Positions 42,590 to 51,554 of a stretch of 51,554 nucleotides of DNA are shown here, piece by piece. The notes below the pieces were generated by a model. That model made no database searches and was not told the DNA's origin. It saw only the letters and a program-made list of their open reading frames with translations. The stretch covers positions 1-51,554 of the forward strand of contig JAUPKQ010000129.1 of the NCBI GenBank assembly GCA_030837345.1, in the 5' to 3' direction. Origin of the DNA: Actinomycetota bacterium (GTDB lineage Bacteria; Actinomycetota; Actinomycetes; Actinomycetales; Kineosporiaceae). How positions within the stretch are numbered: the first letter of the stretch is position 1; each line of letters begins with the position of its first letter. The translations under genes and the position numbers were made by a program.

Positions 42590-44284
42590 TCACCTCACGG
42601 TGTGGTCTCCGTTCGTGATCTCCAGGCGGGGCCAGCCGGCGAGGTCCCGCAGCAACTGACGGTCGTGCGTCGCGACGACGACGGCGGCGCTCGTCGTCCG
42701 GATCGCCTCGGTCACCTCGTCGACAAGCGCCGACGACAGATGGTTCGTCGGCTCGTCCAACATGATTAACCCGGGTCGCAGCGCCAGCGCCAATGCCAGG
42801 TCGAGGCGGCGTTGCTGTCCCTGTGACAGGCGCCCGACTGGCGTGCGCATCGCCTCCGGATCCAGCAGACCGAGCGTTCCGAGCCCGGCGGCGTCCGCCT
42901 CACGGAGCACCCCACCGGTCACCAGCTGTCCCGTTCGGCGGGCATACACCTCGTGAGCGGTGAGCGAGGGCTCCTGCCCGGCGGTCTCCTGACCGACGAG
43001 AGCCACCCGCGCGTCCGGCGCCGTCCAGACGTGACCGCTGGTCGGCGGCAGCACACCCGCGAGGACGGCGAGCAGCGTGGACTTCCCCGCGCCGTTCGGC
43101 CCGACGACGAGCAGCCGCTCCCCACCGTCGAGGACGAGGTCGACCGGCCCTCCCAGTCGTCCGGCGACGGCGACGCCGTGCGCCCGCACCTGCGGTGCCC
43201 CGGGCCGAACCCGAAGATCCGGCCACATGTGGGCCGGCAACGGCCGGGGGATGTCGATCCGGTGCGCTTCCAGGGCCTCCCTCTCCCGGTTCAGGGCCTG
43301 GACGACGCCCGGGGCCCGGGACTGACGCTGGTGCCTCCCCGTTCCCTTGTCCGGCCGCCACCCCGTCGAGAGCCGGTCCCGCGCCTTCGACACCGCGTCC
43401 TGCAGCCGCCGGTGCTCGGTCTGCTGCTCGGCGAAATCCTGCTCCCAGCGCTCGCGCTCGCGGTGCCGGGCCTCCCGCCAGGCGTCGTAGCCGCCCGCGT
43501 ACAGGCGGGGCTTCCCGTCGACGGTCGGGTCGAGGTCGAGGAACCGGTCGGCGACGTCGCGCAGCAGCGCCCGGTCGTGGCTGACGACGGCGAGCCCGCC
43601 GTCGTGCTCCCGCAACCGGCGGGTGAGGAAACCCAGCCCGTCGGCGTCGAGATGGTTGGTCGGTTCGTCGAGCAACAGGATGTCGTGCCGCGCCCCGAGC
43701 AGGCACGCCAGCCGTACCCGGTAGCGCTGGCCCACCGAGAGGGTCGCCAGGGGACGCTCCCGCTCGGTGCAGGCGCCGAGGGCTTCCAGCGCGACGTCGA
43801 CGCGCCGCTCGGCGTCCCAGGCGTCGAGTCTCGTCGCGGCGTCGAGGGCCGCGGAGTAGCGGTCGCCAGCGTCTGGGTCGCCGTCGGTCAGGGCGAGCGT
43901 CGCGTCGTCCAGGGCCTGCAAAGCCGCCAAGGACGGCGCCAGCGCCTTCGACGTCAGGGTGCCGACGGTGTCGCCGTCCCGCACGGACAGCTCCTGGCGG
44001 GCCAGGCCGATCGTGCCCGCCCGGTGCACGGTGCCCCTGTCGGGGGCGAGCAGCCCGGCGAGGACGAGCAACAGAGTGGTCTTCCCCCGCCCGTTCTCGC
44101 CGACGACGGCGACCCGGGACCGCCCGGAGACGGTGACCGAGGCATCGGTGAGGACGCGTCGCGACCCGCGCGTCACAAAGACGCCGACGGCGCGGACGTG
44201 GGCGCTGTCACCCGCCTCGATGGGGGCGGACAGGGTTTTGGAGGGGGTTTCGGAGGGGGCTTCTGATGGTGAGAAGGAGTTCAC
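42590..44284 (-). CDS. ABC-F ATPase, antibiotic-resistance type (ribosome protection)
   Basis: 564 aa with two ATPase domains and no membrane segment: Walker [10 protein letters not shown] and GPNGAGKST, signatures [12 protein letters not shown] and [12 protein letters not shown], Walker [15 protein letters not shown] and [12 protein letters not shown]. The linker between the domains (about 255-330) is charged and helical ([19 protein letters not shown]), as in ABC-F proteins that free stalled or drug-bound ribosomes. GTG 44284 has GGAG upstream. The N-terminal 25 residues are Ser/Pro-rich. A leader ORF at 44434-44381 suggests translation-coupled control. Confidence 0.9.
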
Positions 44285-44886: not shown

Positions 44887-46170
44887 TCAGGACGTGAGCG
44901 CGTGACGGTACTTCGTGACAGTCCTCCGAGCGACGTGAATACCACGGGCCGTGAGGATTTCGGCGACCGCGCGATCGCTCGGTCTGGGCGTGCGGCCGAT
45001 CAGCTCAGCAACGGCTTGCCTGAGGTCGCTGCCGGTGCCGAAGAGCCGTTGCAGGGGGACGACGGTCCCGTCGACGAGCCGAGCCGTGCGGTGCCGTACC
45101 GCCCGGCTGATGGTCGACTCGTGAACGTCGAGCCTCGCTGCTGCCGTGCGCTGGGTGAACGCTCCGAACGTCAAGGCCCCTGTCAGCAACGGTTCTGCGT
45201 GTTCTAGTGCCAGCAGGTCGGCGAGCCCGGTCATCAGTGCCCACCGTCGATGGACGGCGCGCATCAGGGTCCGGGCCTCCCGAAGGTGCTTCCGCGCCTG
45301 CTCCAGCTGCGCGGCCTGTCCGGGGTCCGCCGTCCGTCCTGCCTGCCGCAGCGCGTCGCGGTATCCGTCGTCGAGGTCGACGACCCAGCGCTCGCTCTCC
45401 GGGACGATGGCTTCCACGAGGTCGCCGCAGCGCTCGAACAGCACATCGGGCGGCGTTCTCAGGGTTGGCGTGGTGTCAGCATCGACGATTCCCGGGTAAG
45501 GGCGCAACAGGCGGCTCAACCGAGTCAACAAGGCGGTGACCTGCTCGACGGTACAACCGAGCAGCGGAGCGACGGCACCGGCTCCTGAGGTCTCCAGCAC
45601 GTCGGAATGAAGAGAGAGAATCTCCCGGGCCAGGGCCCGTTCTCCCTCGGACAGCGGGGCCGTCTCAAGCTGTAGCAGGAGGCTTTCCCGAGCCGTAGCC
45701 GCCCCGATACCGGGGGGTCCCACCTCGCGCAGGGCGGCCAGGACTGTCGAGCTGATCTCGGGAGGAATGCCGGTGAGGTCCGCTGGATCGATGAAACCGT
45801 GCTCGTCGAGCGCAGAGAGTACCGTCGCCGCGACCCCGGACAACGATGCCGGGAGCAGCGCGGACAGCTCTTGTTCCAGGCATTCCCACGCCGAGGTGAC
45901 CGTCGCCGGTTCCGGGCTCAGTCGTGGATCTCCGGTCGACGGCGAACCTGTCGTCCCGCAGGCGCATCCGGAACCGGACGTCGTGCGCCCGCACCGGCTG
46001 CAGGACGGCAATGCCTTGGCTACGAGGGCGGGATTGCGGATCGAAGCGGTCTCGAGCTCGGCCTCGAAGTCGTGCTGGGGCAGCGCGAGCAGTTCGACGC
46101 CCATCACCAGGGCGGTGCAGACCTCGACGCGGAGCGAAGTCTGGAGACCCGGTGCGACGTCCCCGCTCAC
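44887..46170 (-). CDS. rpoN: RNA polymerase sigma-54 factor RpoN (divergent)
   Basis: 427 aa, alternative sigma factor that needs an ATP-driven activator and reads -24/-12 promoters. Region I (about 12-50: LVMGVELLALPQHDFEAELE, NPALV) matches the activator-contact region. The core-binding domain has LDEHGFID and LREVGPPGIGAATARESLLLQLE in shortened form GPPGIGA, ESLLLQL. The helix-turn-helix is RLDVHESTISRAVRH (346-360), and the RpoN box is ARRTVTKYRH (414-423), one change from ARRTVAKYR. Region II is replaced by a Cys cluster (C57, C60, C69, C71), unlike classical RpoN. The GTG start overlaps the activator stop by 4 bp (GTGA). Sigma-54 is generally absent from Actinobacteria, so this is unusual. 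Confidence 0.93.
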   Translation of the reverse strand: MSGDVAPGLQTSLRVEVCTALVMGVELLALPQHDFEAELETASIRNPALVAKALPSCSRCGRTTSGSGCACGTTGSPSTGDPRLSPEPATVTSAWECLEQELSALLPASLSGVAATVLSALDEHGFIDPADLTGIPPEISSTVLAALREVGPPGIGAATARESLLLQLETAPLSEGERALAREILSLHSDVLETSGAGAVAPLLGCTVEQVTALLTRLSRLLRPYPGIVDADTTPTLRTPPDVLFERCGDLVEAIVPESERWVVDLDDGYRDALRQAGRTADPGQAAQLEQARKHLREARTLMRAVHRRWALMTGLADLLALEHAEPLLTGALTFGAFTQRTAAARLDVHESTISRAVRHRTARLVDGTVVPLQRLFGTGSDLRQAVAELIGRTPRPSDRAVAEILTARGIHVARRTVTKYRHALTS

Positions 46171-47582
46171 GTGACCATCTCCCCGACCGGGGCATCCGGG
46201 CGTAACGTCCTGGTGCGTTCCGGGGAGCTAGTGATCACGATCGTATCCGCGCGGCGCATCTGCAAGGCCCGTGCCGTGACCCCCAGCCGTCGCGCAGCCC
46301 GGCTCATCTGACCGCCGGACTCGGTGAGGGCGATCTCGACGGCGAGATCGGCGACCGTCGATTTGAGGGTCCGCAGGTTCAGGCCCTCGTCGAGGGCGGC
46401 CCGGACCGCCGTGCGCAGGCAGTCTCCCGGGACCGGTGACTGGCTCCGCCCAGGACGTTCCGCCTCGGGGATCATTCCGACCGTGATGGGACCGTTGCCC
46501 ACGTGGCGTACGGCGATCTGGGTCACCAGTTGTCGAAGCTCCCGGACATTGCCGGGATACCGCCGGTTCCGCAGAAAGGCCTCAACCGCTGGCTCCAGCG
46601 GCGGTGCCTGCTCGCCGAAGATCTGTCGCAGGAAGTGATGGGCCAGCGCGGGGATGTCCGACCGGCGTTCCGAGAGCGTCGGCAGGTGGACCGTGACTGC
46701 CGACAACCTGGACCTCAGATCTCGCCGGAACTGCCCGAGGCACTCCAACTCGTCGAGGTCCCGGTTCGTCGCGCAGACCAGACGGAAGTCGGTCTTCTGC
46801 CATCGTGACGAGCCCAAGGGCTTGAAGGTCCCTTCCTGCAGGACGCGAAGGAGCTCAGGCTGGAGCCCTGGAGGTAGCTCCCCGATCTCGTCCAGGAAGA
46901 GGACTCCTTTGTCGGCCTCCGCGAAAGCGCCGACGCGAGCGGTGTGGGCTCCGGTGAAGGCTCCTCGTTCATGGCCGAAGAGCTCCGGTGCGGACAGGGT
47001 GGCGACGATGGTGGAACAGTCGACGACGACGAAAGGACCTCGTGCGCGTTGCGGATCGAGGGCGTGAACCAACCTGGCGGCCAGCTCCTTCCCGGTACCG
47101 CTCTCCCCGCAGACGAGCACGGAAGCATCGGAGAACTGCGAGATCTCCACCAGGTTGTTCACCACCCGCCGCCAGGCCGGACTGTCCCCGATCAACCTCG
47201 TCGTCACGGGAGCGGACCTGGCCAACCGATCGACGAGATACCAGCGGCGCAACCGGGCGATGACGTCGGGGATGCTCTCCTGAACGTCAGCGACGTTCAG
47301 GACCTCTGTCGCTCCCGCATCCAGGAGACGCCACGGGTCGTCCAGACGTGAGGGCGCGACAACCACGATCAGCCTGCGGTTCCCCTCCTCGGACAGCTGG
47401 TTGATGACCTCCGGTGAGCAGGTCTCGGCCGAGCCGATGAGGACGCCTGGCGCATCGCCTTCCGAACAGATGCCGATGCCGGCCTGGGCCAGGGCAGAGG
47501 AGGCGGCTCTCGCCGTGTCATCGGCGCGCGGAGCGGTGACCCAGACTCGGATTCCTTGACTCTCACTCACGTCCTGGTGCAT
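46167..47582 (-). CDS. Sigma-54 enhancer-binding activator with phospho-acceptor-less receiver-like domain
   Basis: 471 aa. The N-terminal domain (about 10-118) looks receiver-like (VLIGSAETC, LIVVVAPS, LLDAGATEVLN), but no acceptor Asp stands where expected. The AAA+ domain has Walker A GESGTGKE (159-166), the sigma-54-contact loop GAFTGA (207-212), Walker B VLFLDE (227-232), the Arg-finger region FRRDLRSRL and sensor II RYPGNVREL (341-349). The C-terminal Fis-type helix-turn-helix (MSRAARRLGVTARALQMRR) binds enhancers. ATG 47582 is the likely start; its ribosome site is weak. Cotranscribed with rpoN and divergent from the target operon at 48114. Confidence 0.93.
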   Translation of the reverse strand: MHQDVSESQGIRVWVTAPRADDTARAASSALAQAGIGICSEGDAPGVLIGSAETCSPEVINQLSEEGNRRLIVVVAPSRLDDPWRLLDAGATEVLNVADVQESIPDVIARLRRWYLVDRLARSAPVTTRLIGDSPAWRRVVNNLVEISQFSDASVLVCGESGTGKELAARLVHALDPQRARGPFVVVDCSTIVATLSAPELFGHERGAFTGAHTARVGAFAEADKGVLFLDEIGELPPGLQPELLRVLQEGTFKPLGSSRWQKTDFRLVCATNRDLDELECLGQFRRDLRSRLSAVTVHLPTLSERRSDIPALAHHFLRQIFGEQAPPLEPAVEAFLRNRRYPGNVRELRQLVTQIAVRHVGNGPITVGMIPEAERPGRSQSPVPGDCLRTAVRAALDEGLNLRTLKSTVADLAVEIALTESGGQMSRAARRLGVTARALQMRRADTIVITSSPERTRTLRPDAPVGEMVT

Positions 47583-47809
47583 TGATCCGCACTTTCATGG
47601 AGATTGTCGAGAATACTGTCGCCGCTCGTTGTTCCGGGTGTGGCGCAATGAAATGAGTGATCGGGGTGAGGCCACCGGTGGAGCAGCCGGTGCGTGCCGC
47701 GTGAACAATTCAGACGCGCAGGCTCCTGGTCGGGAGCAATGGCCATCGAGGAGCACAAAAGGGTGGATTTCAATTCTGCTCACTTCGCCGAAACTACCGT
47801 CTCCCAGCG

Positions 47810-47819
47810 AGTGATCACT
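47810..47819. promoter_or_regulatory. 10-bp palindrome AGTGATCACT
   Basis: Perfectly self-complementary. The half AGTGATC recurs at 47656-47662, nearer the activator gene. Candidate enhancer or regulator site. Confidence 0.4.
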
Positions 47820-47932
47820 TAATGTTATACCGCTCCTGTCGGTCGGATAGCTATCCCGGCGAGTCTGGCAAGCCCTGCTCAGATCGGCGGAATGAGGGCG
47901 ATCTTCATCAGAACCACGGCTTACAGGGGACA

Positions 47933-47954
47933 GATCTTGATCACAGTCAAGGTC
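47933..47954. promoter_or_regulatory. Candidate enhancer (UAS) for the sigma-54 activator
   Basis: GATCTTGA and TCAAGGTC flank six bases and pair at 7 of 8 positions. The dyad lies about 120-140 bp upstream of the expected transcription start at about 48076, the usual distance for an enhancer-binding protein site. Confidence 0.5.
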
Positions 47955-48049
47955 GTGCGGGGTGACCGGCACCGAAGCTGGCTTCCTTCCGGCGAACACC
48001 GGTTCGTCGTACTGAGCCCGTTCTCCCAGGTCACGACGACCTATTCGGA

Positions 48050-48065
48050 TGGCATGCGACTTGCA
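48050..48065 (+). promoter_or_regulatory. Sigma-54 -24/-12 promoter
   Basis: TGGCATGCGACTTGCA matches the consensus TGGCACG-N4-TTGC(A/T) with the GG (48051-48052) and GC (48063-48064) at exactly the required spacing and only one mismatch (T for C) in the conserved -24 block. Predicted start near 48076, about 38 nt before the ATG at 48114. Confidence 0.85.
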
Positions 48066-48113
48066 TCTCCTGTGGCGACCGAGGCGAAGCCCGCCACAGC
48101 GAAAGGCAACGGG

Positions 48114-48992
48114 ATGCACGACATCGATCAGGAGGCGCTCGATCAGTCCGATCCAGCGCTCTCCGCAGAGAGGGAAGGGAGTCTGTTCGACCTTGACGAC
48201 GAGCCCGAGCCTGACGACCGGTCGGCGGCGGAAGCCACGCCGAGGGCACACGACCTGAGCGGTGTCGACAAGCGGCGCGAAGGCGCCGCTCAGCCGGATG
48301 CCAGTGACGTCATGGACCTGAGTGCTATGTCCCTGGCGCCAGGGGAGGAGCTTGACAGCTCGACCCGGTACGACGTGTTCGTCCCCGACTTCGAGACCGA
48401 TGAGCTAGATCTGGCCGAGAGGCTCCTGGAGGTGAGGGGGGCAGTGGAAGCCGCGGCATGTGTGGCTGCGCTGCTCGACTCGCAGGCCGGTGGCGGGGCG
48501 GACTTCGCTCGTTCCCGGGAAGGGCGCCAGCTCGGTGGAATCCTGTTGCAGGCGGCGACGCGGATCCTGCCGGTCCTCACTACCGCTCCTGGGCGGGGAA
48601 CCCGGAGTGGGGGCGCGAGCTCGCTGAACGTCCTAGCCAAGCGTTGTTTCGGGCTCGATCTCGAGGGGATGAGCCCGGAGGACCAGGAGTTCGAACTCGC
48701 CCGCCAATTCATCCGACTCGCCCAGGAAGCGGCCAGGGAATGCCGGGCGCGGTCCGGCGGGCAGGCTCCACACCAGGTTGCCAGGGCTGCGGCGGAGGCT
48801 GCGGGCCGACGCTGGGCACCAGGACTCTTTACGGCTCGGATTCTTGAGGCACCACCACTCGCGCCGCGATCGGACCTCCCGTCCTGTCCTGCGGTTCCGA
48901 ACTGTGCGAAGTGCAGGAACGGGGTCCTGTCTGGCGTCGCGAGTGGCTGGTGGGAACGATCCGGGAACAAAACCATTCTATATGTCGACTGA
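48114..48992 (+). CDS. Sigma-54 operon protein A: unknown, paralogous to the next gene
   Basis: 292 aa from ATG 48114, with AAAGG 7 nt upstream and the sigma-54 promoter before it. Acidic, disordered N-terminus (about 1-100), then a helical core (AERLLEVRGAVEAAA, DFARSREGRQLGGILLQAA, FELARQFIRLAQEAARECRA) and a Cys-containing stretch (CPAVPNCAKC), ending GWWERSGNKTILYVD. The core blocks and the C-terminal W-E-R-x-G-N motif reappear in the same order in the downstream gene, so the two are paralogs. Function not recognised. No signal peptide or membrane segment. Confidence 0.75.
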   Translation: MHDIDQEALDQSDPALSAEREGSLFDLDDEPEPDDRSAAEATPRAHDLSGVDKRREGAAQPDASDVMDLSAMSLAPGEELDSSTRYDVFVPDFETDELDLAERLLEVRGAVEAAACVAALLDSQAGGGADFARSREGRQLGGILLQAATRILPVLTTAPGRGTRSGGASSLNVLAKRCFGLDLEGMSPEDQEFELARQFIRLAQEAARECRARSGGQAPHQVARAAAEAAGRRWAPGLFTARILEAPPLAPRSDLPSCPAVPNCAKCRNGVLSGVASGWWERSGNKTILYVD

Positions 48993-49002
48993 GGAGAGCA
49001 AC

Positions 49003-49956
49003 GTGAGAACTGCCATGGGCTACCAGAATGAGCTCGAGTTCGAGGGCGAGTTCGAGGGCGAGGTGGAGCTCGAGTTCGAGGGTGAGTTCGAGGACGAGTT
49101 CGAGGGAGAGTTTGAGGACGAGTTCGAGGGAGAGTTTGAAGGTGAGTTCGAAGACGAGGGCGAGTTTGAGAGCTCACAGAAGGTGCTGGCGAGGGACATG
49201 CTCAACTCGGTCCTCGGTAGTTCGGCCAAGGGGCCGATCTCTCCGGCGCAGGAGATGGAGCTTGCTGGAGAACTGCTGGAGCTGGAGAGCGAGGCCGAAC
49301 TCGAACAGTTTGTCGGGAGACTCTTCAGGAGGGTGGGACGTGGGGTCGCCGGATTCGCCCGATCCGAAGCCGGTCGAGCGCTCGGGGGAGTACTCAAGAA
49401 TGTTGCCAAGCAGGCTCTTCCGACGCTCGGCGGCGCGCTCGGATCGGCGATTCCCGGGCTGGGTGGAATCGGTGGAATGATCGGCTCGAAGCTCGGGCAA
49501 ATGGCCAGTAACGCCCTCGAGATGGAAGGCGAAGTCGTCCAGCACGAGCTCGAGTTCGAGGTGGCGCGGCGTGTCGTGCGCATCGCAGCTGACGCCACTC
49601 GCCGTGCCAGCCGGACGCCGTCCCGCAGCGCCACGCCGAAGCAGATCGTCCGGAACTCGATCATCGCCGCGACTCGTCGTCACGCTCCGGCCGCGCTGAT
49701 CGAGCTGTCCCCGCGAGCGGCCGCTGCGGTCAGGGCACGGGGAGCCCGCGCCAGCTACGTGAGTCCCCGGTTCCGGGGCCGGCGGCCGGCGGCCACTGCG
49801 CAGTGGCCGGCGACGCGCCCGCGCCGGCGCAGGTACTACCGGCAGATGCCCATGACTGGATACACGACGTCACCTGACCGAGGCTCCGGCATGATGCTCG
49901 GGCGCGGCGGACGCTGGGAGCGCCGGGGCAACACAATCGTCATGTTCGACGCCTAA
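49003..49956 (+). CDS. Sigma-54 operon protein B: acidic EFEGE-repeat protein
   Basis: 317 aa from GTG 49003 (GGAG 6 nt upstream, 10 bp after the previous stop; ATG 48982 is an alternative). Residues about 10-57 are nearly pure E/F/G/D repeats of the EFEGEFED type. Then a helical core like protein A (ELAGELLELESEAELEQFV, FARSEAGRALGGVLKNVAKQ), a Gly-rich hydrophobic hairpin-like segment (GGALGSAIPGLGGIGGMIG), FEVARRVVRIAADATRRAS, a basic Arg/Ala tail, and final GRWERRGNTIVMFDA. Acidic head and basic tail suggest self- or partner assembly (inference). Function unknown. Confidence 0.8.
   Translation: MRTAMGYQNELEFEGEFEGEVELEFEGEFEDEFEGEFEDEFEGEFEGEFEDEGEFESSQKVLARDMLNSVLGSSAKGPISPAQEMELAGELLELESEAELEQFVGRLFRRVGRGVAGFARSEAGRALGGVLKNVAKQALPTLGGALGSAIPGLGGIGGMIGSKLGQMASNALEMEGEVVQHELEFEVARRVVRIAADATRRASRTPSRSATPKQIVRNSIIAATRRHAPAALIELSPRAAAAVRARGARASYVSPRFRGRRPAATAQWPATRPRRRRYYRQMPMTGYTTSPDRGSGMMLGRGGRWERRGNTIVMFDA
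49029..49175. repeat. 12-bp-type tandem repeat encoding EFEGE
   Basis: Imperfect GAGTTCGAGGGC/GAGTTCGAGGAC units run through the 5' part of protein B's gene, prone to length change in multiples of 12 bp without frameshift. Confidence 0.8.
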
Positions 49957-49958
49957 TC

Positions 49959-51335
49959 GTGTTCGGTTCCGCCGTCACGCGCGACTTCCTCGCTGCGGAG
50001 ACCCAAGCTCTGCTGACCAGGATCGACGGGCTGCGGGCGTTCGTCGAGCAGGACACCATGGTGCCCGCGGCACTGTTGTTGCCGCGGGCACTGGTGGGTA
50101 TCGATGCCCTCCTTGCCACGGAGCGCTCCCGCTTGCGCCAGCTTGCTGAGGCGTACCTCGTCTGGCTCCAGGGCATCGGCGCCCATGCTTCGCCAGCCGA
50201 GCAGCAGCGTCGGTTCGTGCTGCTGCGGCTGCGGTTGAACGACCACCTCTCGCAGTTAGATCTCTTCTCGGAAGTCATCGTCCAGCGGTCCGAGATGGAG
50301 ATCGGGGCGTGGCTGTCGGGGATGGATGTGGCGGCCGCGGACGCTTTGTGCCTGAATGACGGCCGTCTGGGAGATGCCGTTCCCATCATCTGTTACCTGG
50401 CGCGGGGGCCGGGCGCGGCGATCCGGCGGGCCCACACCAGGCTGCCCGGGGGGGTGCAGAATCCTGTGGCAATCGTCCGGGTTCCCCGGGAACGGATGGC
50501 CGGACACGGCATAGCTTCCTCGCTCTTCCATGAGGTCGGACATCAAGGTGCGGCCCTTCTGGATCTCCTGCCATCCTTGAGGGCAGAGCTCGCCGACGTC
50601 GTACGGGAGAGTGGCGTGGGCGAGCGGTTCGCCTGGAAATGCTGGCAACGGTGGGTGTCGGAGATCGTGGCCGACTTCTGGTCGGTCGCGAAGCTCGGGA
50701 TCGGATCCACCCTCGGTCTGATGGCCGTGGTGAGTCTGCCCAGGCCTTTCGTCTTCCGGATCAATCTCACCGACCCTCATCCCTTTCCCTGGATCAGGGT
50801 CCTGATTTCCGCCGCGTTCGGCCAGCATCTCTACCCGGATCAGCAGTGGCAGGATATAGGCCGTATCTGGTGTCATCTGTACCCGTTGGAGAACGCGGCG
50901 CCAAATGCGCAACAGATTGTCCGCCGACTCTTGCCAACGTTATCTGACCTTGCTGCAAGGATTGCCGGTCACCGCCCTCCGGCGCTGGACGGCGTGAACC
51001 TGTCGGAGGCTCTGGCCCACCCCAGCAGACGACCGGTGGAGTTGCGGCGGTTGCGGGGGGAAGCTGCCTCGGGGAAGGACCTGGCCATGATCTCCCCGGT
51101 GCTTCGGTTTGCTCTGCTGGGGCAAGCCCGGTGGGACCGCAGGGTGTCCGCGGCGGACGAGAACCGCGAGGTGAGGTCCATGCTCACCACGTGGGCCAGG
51201 GAGTCCACGCTGCGCATGGCTGAGGCGGCGGGGCGTCAACGAATTACTAGCACGGGACAGGTGATTCCGCACACCTCCGGGAGAACGGTGAACCTCGGGG
51301 ACCATGCCTGGACCGAACCAGTCTCGAAAGGATGA
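49959..51335 (+). CDS. Sigma-54 operon protein C: putative HEVGH zinc peptidase
   Basis: 458 aa. GTG 49959 is 2 bp after the stop of protein B and lacks a clear ribosome site, so translation is probably coupled. LFHEVGHQ (190-196) fits the HExxH zinc-peptidase motif, and EIVADFW (235-241), 40 residues on, could supply the third ligand (Glu235) in gluzincin style, with Asp239 as support. No signal peptide. The rest has no recognised domain. Might process the neighbouring repeat proteins (inference). Confidence 0.75.
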   Translation: MFGSAVTRDFLAAETQALLTRIDGLRAFVEQDTMVPAALLLPRALVGIDALLATERSRLRQLAEAYLVWLQGIGAHASPAEQQRRFVLLRLRLNDHLSQLDLFSEVIVQRSEMEIGAWLSGMDVAAADALCLNDGRLGDAVPIICYLARGPGAAIRRAHTRLPGGVQNPVAIVRVPRERMAGHGIASSLFHEVGHQGAALLDLLPSLRAELADVVRESGVGERFAWKCWQRWVSEIVADFWSVAKLGIGSTLGLMAVVSLPRPFVFRINLTDPHPFPWIRVLISAAFGQHLYPDQQWQDIGRIWCHLYPLENAAPNAQQIVRRLLPTLSDLAARIAGHRPPALDGVNLSEALAHPSRRPVELRRLRGEAASGKDLAMISPVLRFALLGQARWDRRVSAADENREVRSMLTTWARESTLRMAEAAGRQRITSTGQVIPHTSGRTVNLGDHAWTEPVSKG

Positions 51336-51338
51336 AAG

Positions 51339-51554
51339 ATGGGAAATGAGAATCGTCCGAATCCCCGCAGGCCGAGATCGAACCCGCCGGAAGACGTCGA
51401 CGAGACAGAGCTCCGAAAAATGACCGTGCGGGCCGAGGCCAGCCTTCGATGCTCGGAAGGATCGGTTGGTGATGTGGAGGGTGAACCAGAAGGGGACGGG
51501 GACGAGAGGGTCGTCGTCGAAGGTGAGGCGATCGTCACTCCGAGCAGCTCAAGC
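51339..51554 (+). CDS. Sigma-54 operon protein D: acidic protein, cut by window end
   Basis: ATG 51339, 3 bp after the stop of protein C, with AGGA 6 nt upstream. 72 codons are visible without a stop: MGNENRPNPRRPRSNPPEDV, then a Glu/Asp/Gly/Val-rich stretch (GDVEGEPEGDGDE). The 3' end is outside the window. The acidic low-complexity start resembles that of proteins A and B, so it may be a further member of the set. Too little is visible to assign a family. Confidence 0.65.
   Translation, partial: MGNENRPNPRRPRSNPPEDVDETELRKMTVRAEASLRCSEGSVGDVEGEPEGDGDERVVVEGEAIVTPSSSS

Follow-up and report, generated by a model that had tools for sequence, protein, structure and literature searches.

A predicted -24/-12 promoter between a divergent activator-rpoN unit and an operon of an actinomycete contig

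In an actinomycete contig a sequence of the -24/-12 type lies in front of an operon, with genes for the sigma factor RpoN (sigma-54) and a sigma-54 activator on the opposite strand. This arrangement raises the question whether the sequence is a promoter for the locally encoded sigma factor, in a group for which such transcription has been doubted. According to a 2025 survey (PMC12316311), rpoN matches occur in 4 of 173 Actinomycetota, a single one being accepted as proper in a strain judged to be misclassified; the survey concludes that functional RpoN is effectively absent from Actinomycetota and proposes that high G+C impairs the recognition of sigma-54 sites. Another paper (PMC3162934) likewise states that the sigma-54 system is absent from Actinobacteria. 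Among the papers listed, as far as titles and the beginnings of abstracts tell, no rpoN cassette has been described in Actinomycetes. The whole stretch of 51,554 nucleotides analysed here is called the window, and its source genome is G000.

The site and the genes of the operon

Sigma-54 promoters follow the consensus TGGCACR-N4-TTGCW, in which GG and GC lie 10 bp apart. The original prediction had placed a promoter of this kind before the operon, pointing away from the activator-rpoN unit. Its sequence, coordinates and strand agree with the DNA, with GG and GC of TGGCATGCGACTTGCA 10 bases apart; the claimed distance to the ATG at 48114 agrees too, the start codon of gene A lying 48 bases downstream of the site; and activator and rpoN are indeed encoded divergently on the opposite strand (Table 1). 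Including the spacing of GG and GC, the site matches the consensus at 11 of 12 scored positions. The ATG at 48114 is supported as the start of gene A since MHD(I/L)D also begins this gene in actinomycete relatives. A second -24/-12-like match, CGGCACGGGCCTTGCA (46261-46276, minus strand), falls within the activator coding sequence, about 91 bp upstream of the start of rpoN, and could reflect chance or feedback.

Table 1. Coordinates of the predicted promoter elements and of the genes in the window
Feature	Position	Strand	Remarks
rpoN (sigma-54)	44887..46170	-	weak region I, zinc-ribbon-like cysteine motif, core-binding and DNA-binding domains, RpoN box ARRTVTKYR
Sigma-54 activator (bEBP)	46167..47582	-	N-terminal region with little conservation; GAFTGA in the AAA+ domain; putative Fis-type HTH, just under the Pfam cut-off
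Distal enhancer-like dyad	47974..47985	.	GAAGCTGGCTTC
Proximal enhancer-like dyad	47994..48005	.	GAACACCGGTTC; 20 bp from distal dyad
-24/-12 (sigma-54) promoter, predicted	48050..48065	+	TGGCATGCGACTTGCA; GG 48051-48052, GC 48063-48064; predicted start near 48076
Gene A	48114..48992	+	starts MHDID; no Pfam/NCBIfam match
Gene B	48982..49956	+	acidic repeats; glycine-rich core common to A and B
Gene C	49959..51335	+	HEVGHQ motif; 46-48% identity to six relatives
Fourth gene, start only	51339..51554	+	ends at contig edge; by eye unlike relatives' gene D

Relatives of the operon carry the additional genes D, E (PLP-enzyme-like, a weak match at E 0.17), F, which is an amidohydrolase (PF04909, E 7.2e-17), and G, which over 24 residues weakly resembles a toxin-nuclease family (E 0.004, below cut-off), a similarity not relied on. 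Pfam named none of A, B, C and D, with no match above cut-off for A, B and C; NCBIfam had no match for A, B and C, and PADLOC named none of A, B, C, D, E and G. PHROGs yielded no naming match for A, B and C, the weak matches of gene B being to an unknown family (E 9e-4) and to a tape-measure family (E 0.005). Going by its HEVGHQ motif only, gene C may encode a putative zinc peptidase; its AlphaFold model had a mean pLDDT of 57 and no PDB match at E <= 0.001, and that of gene D a mean pLDDT of 42.7. No counterpart of the relatives' gene D was detected in G000, a result of one query against a fragmented assembly which shows little. Upstream on the window lies a gene for an ABC-F protein (42590-44284, minus strand), near the ribosomal-protection families and below their curated cut-offs.

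The sigma factor, its activator and the occurrence of the cassette

The window RpoN matches PF04552 (E 1.2e-16) and PF04963 (E 3.4e-14) above the cut-offs, and all eight members of an aligned RpoN set match both families. Region I is weaker, with PF00309 reaching 14.5 bits (E 0.032) against a cut-off of 23.8, and is detected at E <= 0.1 in six of the eight members. As the NCBIfam rpoN_sigma equivalog cut-off was missed by far (128 versus 277 bits), the protein is regarded as a divergent branch. The RpoN box ARRTVxKYR is present in each of nine cassette RpoNs, and eight of these contain the motif CxxC...C(x)xC between region I and the core-binding domain, the one of genome G600 having CxxC and then CC; no CxxC of any kind was found in eleven reference RpoNs. 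This motif might serve to stabilise the sigma factor or to adapt it to actinobacterial polymerase. In a tree of 20 sequences, from which G997 was left out, the nine cassette RpoNs formed one clade with 100/100 support, to which neither the five proteobacterial groups nor Prevotella nor the four RpoNs of other members of the phylum belonged; the row of the window is long and the root arbitrary.

The activator gene comes first in the divergent unit, and its end overlaps rpoN by 4 bases. Its product matches PF00158 at E 4.7e-53 with GAFTGA present, and its HTH_8 match is just below the Pfam cut-off (21.2 versus 22 bits). GAFTGA is found in 12 of 13 activators, with GSFTGA in the remaining one (L043 of G600). 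When the four cassette genomes G000, G035, G373 and G600 were searched with PF00158, a single match at E 7.3e-50 or better was observed in each, and this was the cassette's own activator. Other matches in these genomes had E values of 2.3e-8 or weaker and, inferred from their length, look like Clp or MoxR-type ATPases. Two control genomes had weak matches only, none of them a strong activator.

The cassette, consisting of rpoN, the sigma-54 activator and the operon A-B-C, was found in eight other actinomycete genomes, six of them named (L014-L019) besides G373 and G600. A search with gene C led to seven loci, in Pseudarthrobacter sp. C4D7, Arthrobacter sp. P2b, Cellulomonas sp. Root930, Kribbella steppae, Paractinoplanes deccanensis, Cellulomonas avistercoris and Arthrobacter nitrophenolicus (L020, which ends at a contig edge); G035 was taken as Pseudarthrobacter sp. 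C4D7 itself, the genes being identical. Six of the seven loci have the same gene order, rpoN, A, B, C, D, E, F, activator, with the activator at the far end on the opposite strand, and the window differs from these relatives by having activator and rpoN as one divergent unit. All six loci L014-L019 have gene F, which L020 has as two pieces, gene G was not recognised in Paractinoplanes, and E, F and G were not detected in G600. In L020 the genes C and D, gene F and the activator are each split between frames, by decay or by sequencing errors.

Among 396 genomes of the order, profile searches gave a strong RpoN hit in three, and among 394 of the class likewise in three. The four distinct genomes with a strong RpoN (G000, G035, G373 and G600) all have the cassette genes, and no strong RpoN outside a cassette was found in these 396 and 394 genomes. 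Six weak RpoN matches in the order and four in the class (E 1.7e-5 to 8.8e-4) were read as HTH similarity of a general kind. Gene C was detected in 15 of the 394 genomes of the class sample, assumed to be identical with the sample searched for RpoN; three matches were very strong (E 1.6e-153 or better), all in genomes with RpoN, and none of the 12 weak ones (E 2.3e-40 to 1.4e-14) was among the RpoN-matched genomes. Distant homologues of C at L044-L048, L052 and L053 are without RpoN and cassette, except for an F-like amidohydrolase in L052, and were not counted. Their neighbours include an M20 peptidase (L052), an OmpA-domain protein (L044) and a CHAT protein (L053) and, by eye, acidic repeat proteins and a LuxR-like regulator nearby.

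Conserved elements upstream of gene A and their possible readings

A -24/-12 site is present before gene A in all nine actinomycete loci having that upstream DNA (the window, L012, L014-L019 and L043 of G600), 34-71 bases before the ATG, with 34 bases in L018 and 42 in L043. L010 was dropped as a duplicate of L014, and L020 is without DNA before gene A. The rpoN gene of G600 is located between C and A, each of which has a site in front of it, the second one being 44 bases before the start of C. The site of Ensifer adhaerens agrees with the consensus at 12 of 12 positions and that of Rhizobium sp. CCGE532 at 11; the one of Paraburkholderia phymatum, with the deviant TGGTATG, agrees at 9 of 12, was spotted by eye and lies 81 bases before the ATG.

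Upstream of the promoter there are dyads of the form GAAS-N4-STTC. In the region from -250 to -20 of 11 loci the strict form was counted 16 times against 0.16 expected and a slightly looser form 19 times against 0.19, the expectation being taken from the rest of the loci and being post hoc, because the pattern was defined after inspection of these same loci. The dyads are spaced by 20 bases in five loci, by 41-44 in five and by 32 in P. phymatum. A strict pair with a gap of 8 bases, a gap which fits the source genome among others, occurs once each in G000 (47974-48005), G035 and G373, always before gene A. Genome-wide it is absent from G600, which has the cassette, and from two relatives without rpoN (G001 and G017); the reversed control gave no match in all six genomes. 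No dyads of the GAAS-N4-STTC type were found at -250 to -20 in L043 of G600, where different dyads, GCGCAGCCGGCTGCGC, lie upstream. The paired inverted repeats are likely candidate sites for the activator. Neither these dyads nor the wider cassette formed part of the original prediction.

The sequence at 48050-48065 is best taken as the promoter of the operon A-B-C, predicted to be read by the RpoN encoded opposite, with sigma factor, activator, enhancers and operon forming a cassette, and we put the probability of this at about 0.92. The proposal that the local sigma factor has its target here gained support from the presence of the site in nine of nine actinomycete loci, from the columns invariant in nine distant loci, which fall on the -24 and -12 elements, and further from the dyad pair, which in three genomes was found only here, from the DNA-binding domain and RpoN box of RpoN and from GAFTGA in the activator. 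On the best reading of these sequences the parts would make up a closed, largely one-promoter sigma-54 circuit which brings its own sigma factor. In the mechanism that we infer, polymerase carrying RpoN would form a closed complex at the promoter. From the dyads at 47974 and 47994, some 75-95 bases upstream of the predicted start at 48076, the bound activator would then open this complex, using ATP by way of its GAFTGA loop.

The alternative which survives best, itself unlikely, makes this promoter one of several in a larger RpoN regulon, the circuit then serving more than a single operon. Such a regulon would fit the two additional exact matches of the motif in each of G035 and G373, the second G600 site before gene C and the site-like match at 46276 within the activator gene, about 91 bp before rpoN. 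The dyad pair occurring once per genome in three genomes and the one strong activator in each of four argue for the dedicated circuit.

An operator of a dyad-binding repressor or activator in place of a sigma-54 promoter is conceivable because the conserved 16-mer is partly palindromic in several other actinomycetes, GCACGGAACGTGC and GCACGAATTGTGC being near-palindromic examples from relatives. Symmetry is poorer in the window, Ensifer, Rhizobium and G600, yet the -24/-12 letters are kept. In an alignment of nine distant loci (near relatives L015, L019 and L012 left out, Rhizobium CCGE531 not among the rows) the columns T-GG-A-G and TGC, placed as in a sigma-54 site, were invariant in all nine; no flanking column was, and a G four bases upstream, shared by eight of the loci, came closest. 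As the cassette moreover encodes RpoN and a GAFTGA-type activator, the operator is a very improbable explanation.

The sequence might also match by chance, and a housekeeping promoter at another point of the 531-bp gap might drive the operon. Of 20,000 order-1 Markov shuffles, 0.085% had a plus strand site of equal quality within the 231 bp preceding gene A, and of 5,000 shuffles 0.76% had one on either strand of the 531-bp gap; in the whole window two sites this good stand against 0.3 expected (40 shuffles). The pattern TGGCAYGNNNNKTGCA had one match in G000 (4.35 Mb) and its reversed form two, the corresponding numbers being 3 and 0 in G035, 3 and 9 in G373, and 0 and 9 in G600; in eight further genomes or records the motif exceeded its control in the Ensifer and Rhizobium plasmids only. 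The original prediction had proposed refutation by the frequency of the motif, a check that is uninformative because the count is at chance level. Counts exceeded the reversed control in three of 12 genomes or records (G035 and these two plasmids) and were at or below it in nine, and genome-wide rarity was rejected as evidence. Judged from sequence, the case for the site rests on position, context and conservation across species, the motif count being of little weight. That same chance-level count is what favours a chance match, which is nevertheless still less probable than an operator in view of the 0.085% from shuffling, the same position of the site in nine of nine actinomycete loci and a region 47560-48130 without a sigma-70-like site (E. 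coli-type consensus only). Contamination of an actinomycete assembly by proteobacterial DNA, a thought suggested by the megaplasmid relatives of the operon in Ensifer, Rhizobium and Paraburkholderia, the 269 contigs of the G000 assembly and a G+C of 0.65-0.69 in the last 8 kb, below most of the remaining window, can be dismissed as scarcely credible for a contig with 70% G+C and many ordinary chromosomal genes (annotation by eye), the cassette being found also on contigs of 3.47 Mb in Cellulomonas sp. Root930, 254 kb in Paractinoplanes and 3.98 Mb in G373.

Origin, known counterparts and meaning of the cassette

On the megaplasmids of Ensifer adhaerens, Rhizobium and Paraburkholderia phymatum the operon, the activator and the promoter site are present, and no rpoN was found within 19 kb in Ensifer adhaerens, Rhizobium sp. 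CCGE532 and P. phymatum (tblastn, E 1e-3). When the activator was compared with plasmids, Ensifer, two Rhizobium and P. phymatum were at the top of the best 15 of 2425 matched records (E 2e-90 to 2e-69), and the best other plasmid activator among the matches listed had E 3e-50. Since the activators of Ensifer, Rhizobium and P. phymatum are the closest among the matches listed, the cassette probably crossed phyla, in the one direction or the other. The simplest reading is that rpoN was retained where the host has none of its own, so that the cassette carries its own rpoN in Actinomycetes and the host RpoN would serve in the three Proteobacteria. The odds are about even that the sigma-54 lineage with the cysteine motif has become a mobile transcription system of its own, whose sigma factor, activator, enhancer pair and promoter entered actinomycetes together to run a gene set that uses the host's sigma-54 in Proteobacteria.

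In its -24/-12 element, upstream dyads, GAFTGA-bearing AAA+ domain and RpoN box the cassette is like sigma-54 promoters with bEBP enhancers of the NtrC, NifA, PspF and RtcR type. It differs from these in grouping sigma factor, activator, enhancers and one target operon together, and in its occurrence in a class where the analysis found no other RpoN. The best NCBIfam and PADLOC match of the activator is RtcR, the regulator of rtcBA RNA repair, via residues 120-442; the RtcR equivalog cut-off was missed (260.8 versus 650 bits), the best PADLOC stretch begins at residue 120, and the N-terminal part is without a match to the CARF sensor region of RtcR. Neither rtcB nor rtcA was recognised by eye beside the window activator. 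RpoN3 of Cereibacter sphaeroides is likewise reported to be paired with a particular activator (PMC11999139). This organism is a proteobacterium with several rpoN copies according to PMC12316311, whereas here the cassette RpoN is the only one found in an actinomycete genome. A plasmid of Gemmobacter fulvus also has rpoN adjoining a sigma-54 regulator; its RpoN is of another lineage, without the cysteine motif of the cassette RpoNs.

Outside the class of the window, 15 of the 396 genomes sampled from the phylum had a strong RpoN (E 1.3e-36 or better; L073-L084). For some Actinomycetes the present loci contradict, by sequence, the conclusion of PMC12316311, the cassette being a sequence-level counter-example in a 70% G+C contig with every expected part in place. 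Its occurrence in named cultured strains of Pseudarthrobacter, Cellulomonas and Kribbella makes the question of sigma-54 in actinomycetes testable and, if the reading is true, a sigma-54 circuit with one promoter would provide a simple orthogonal system for expression that occurs in nature.
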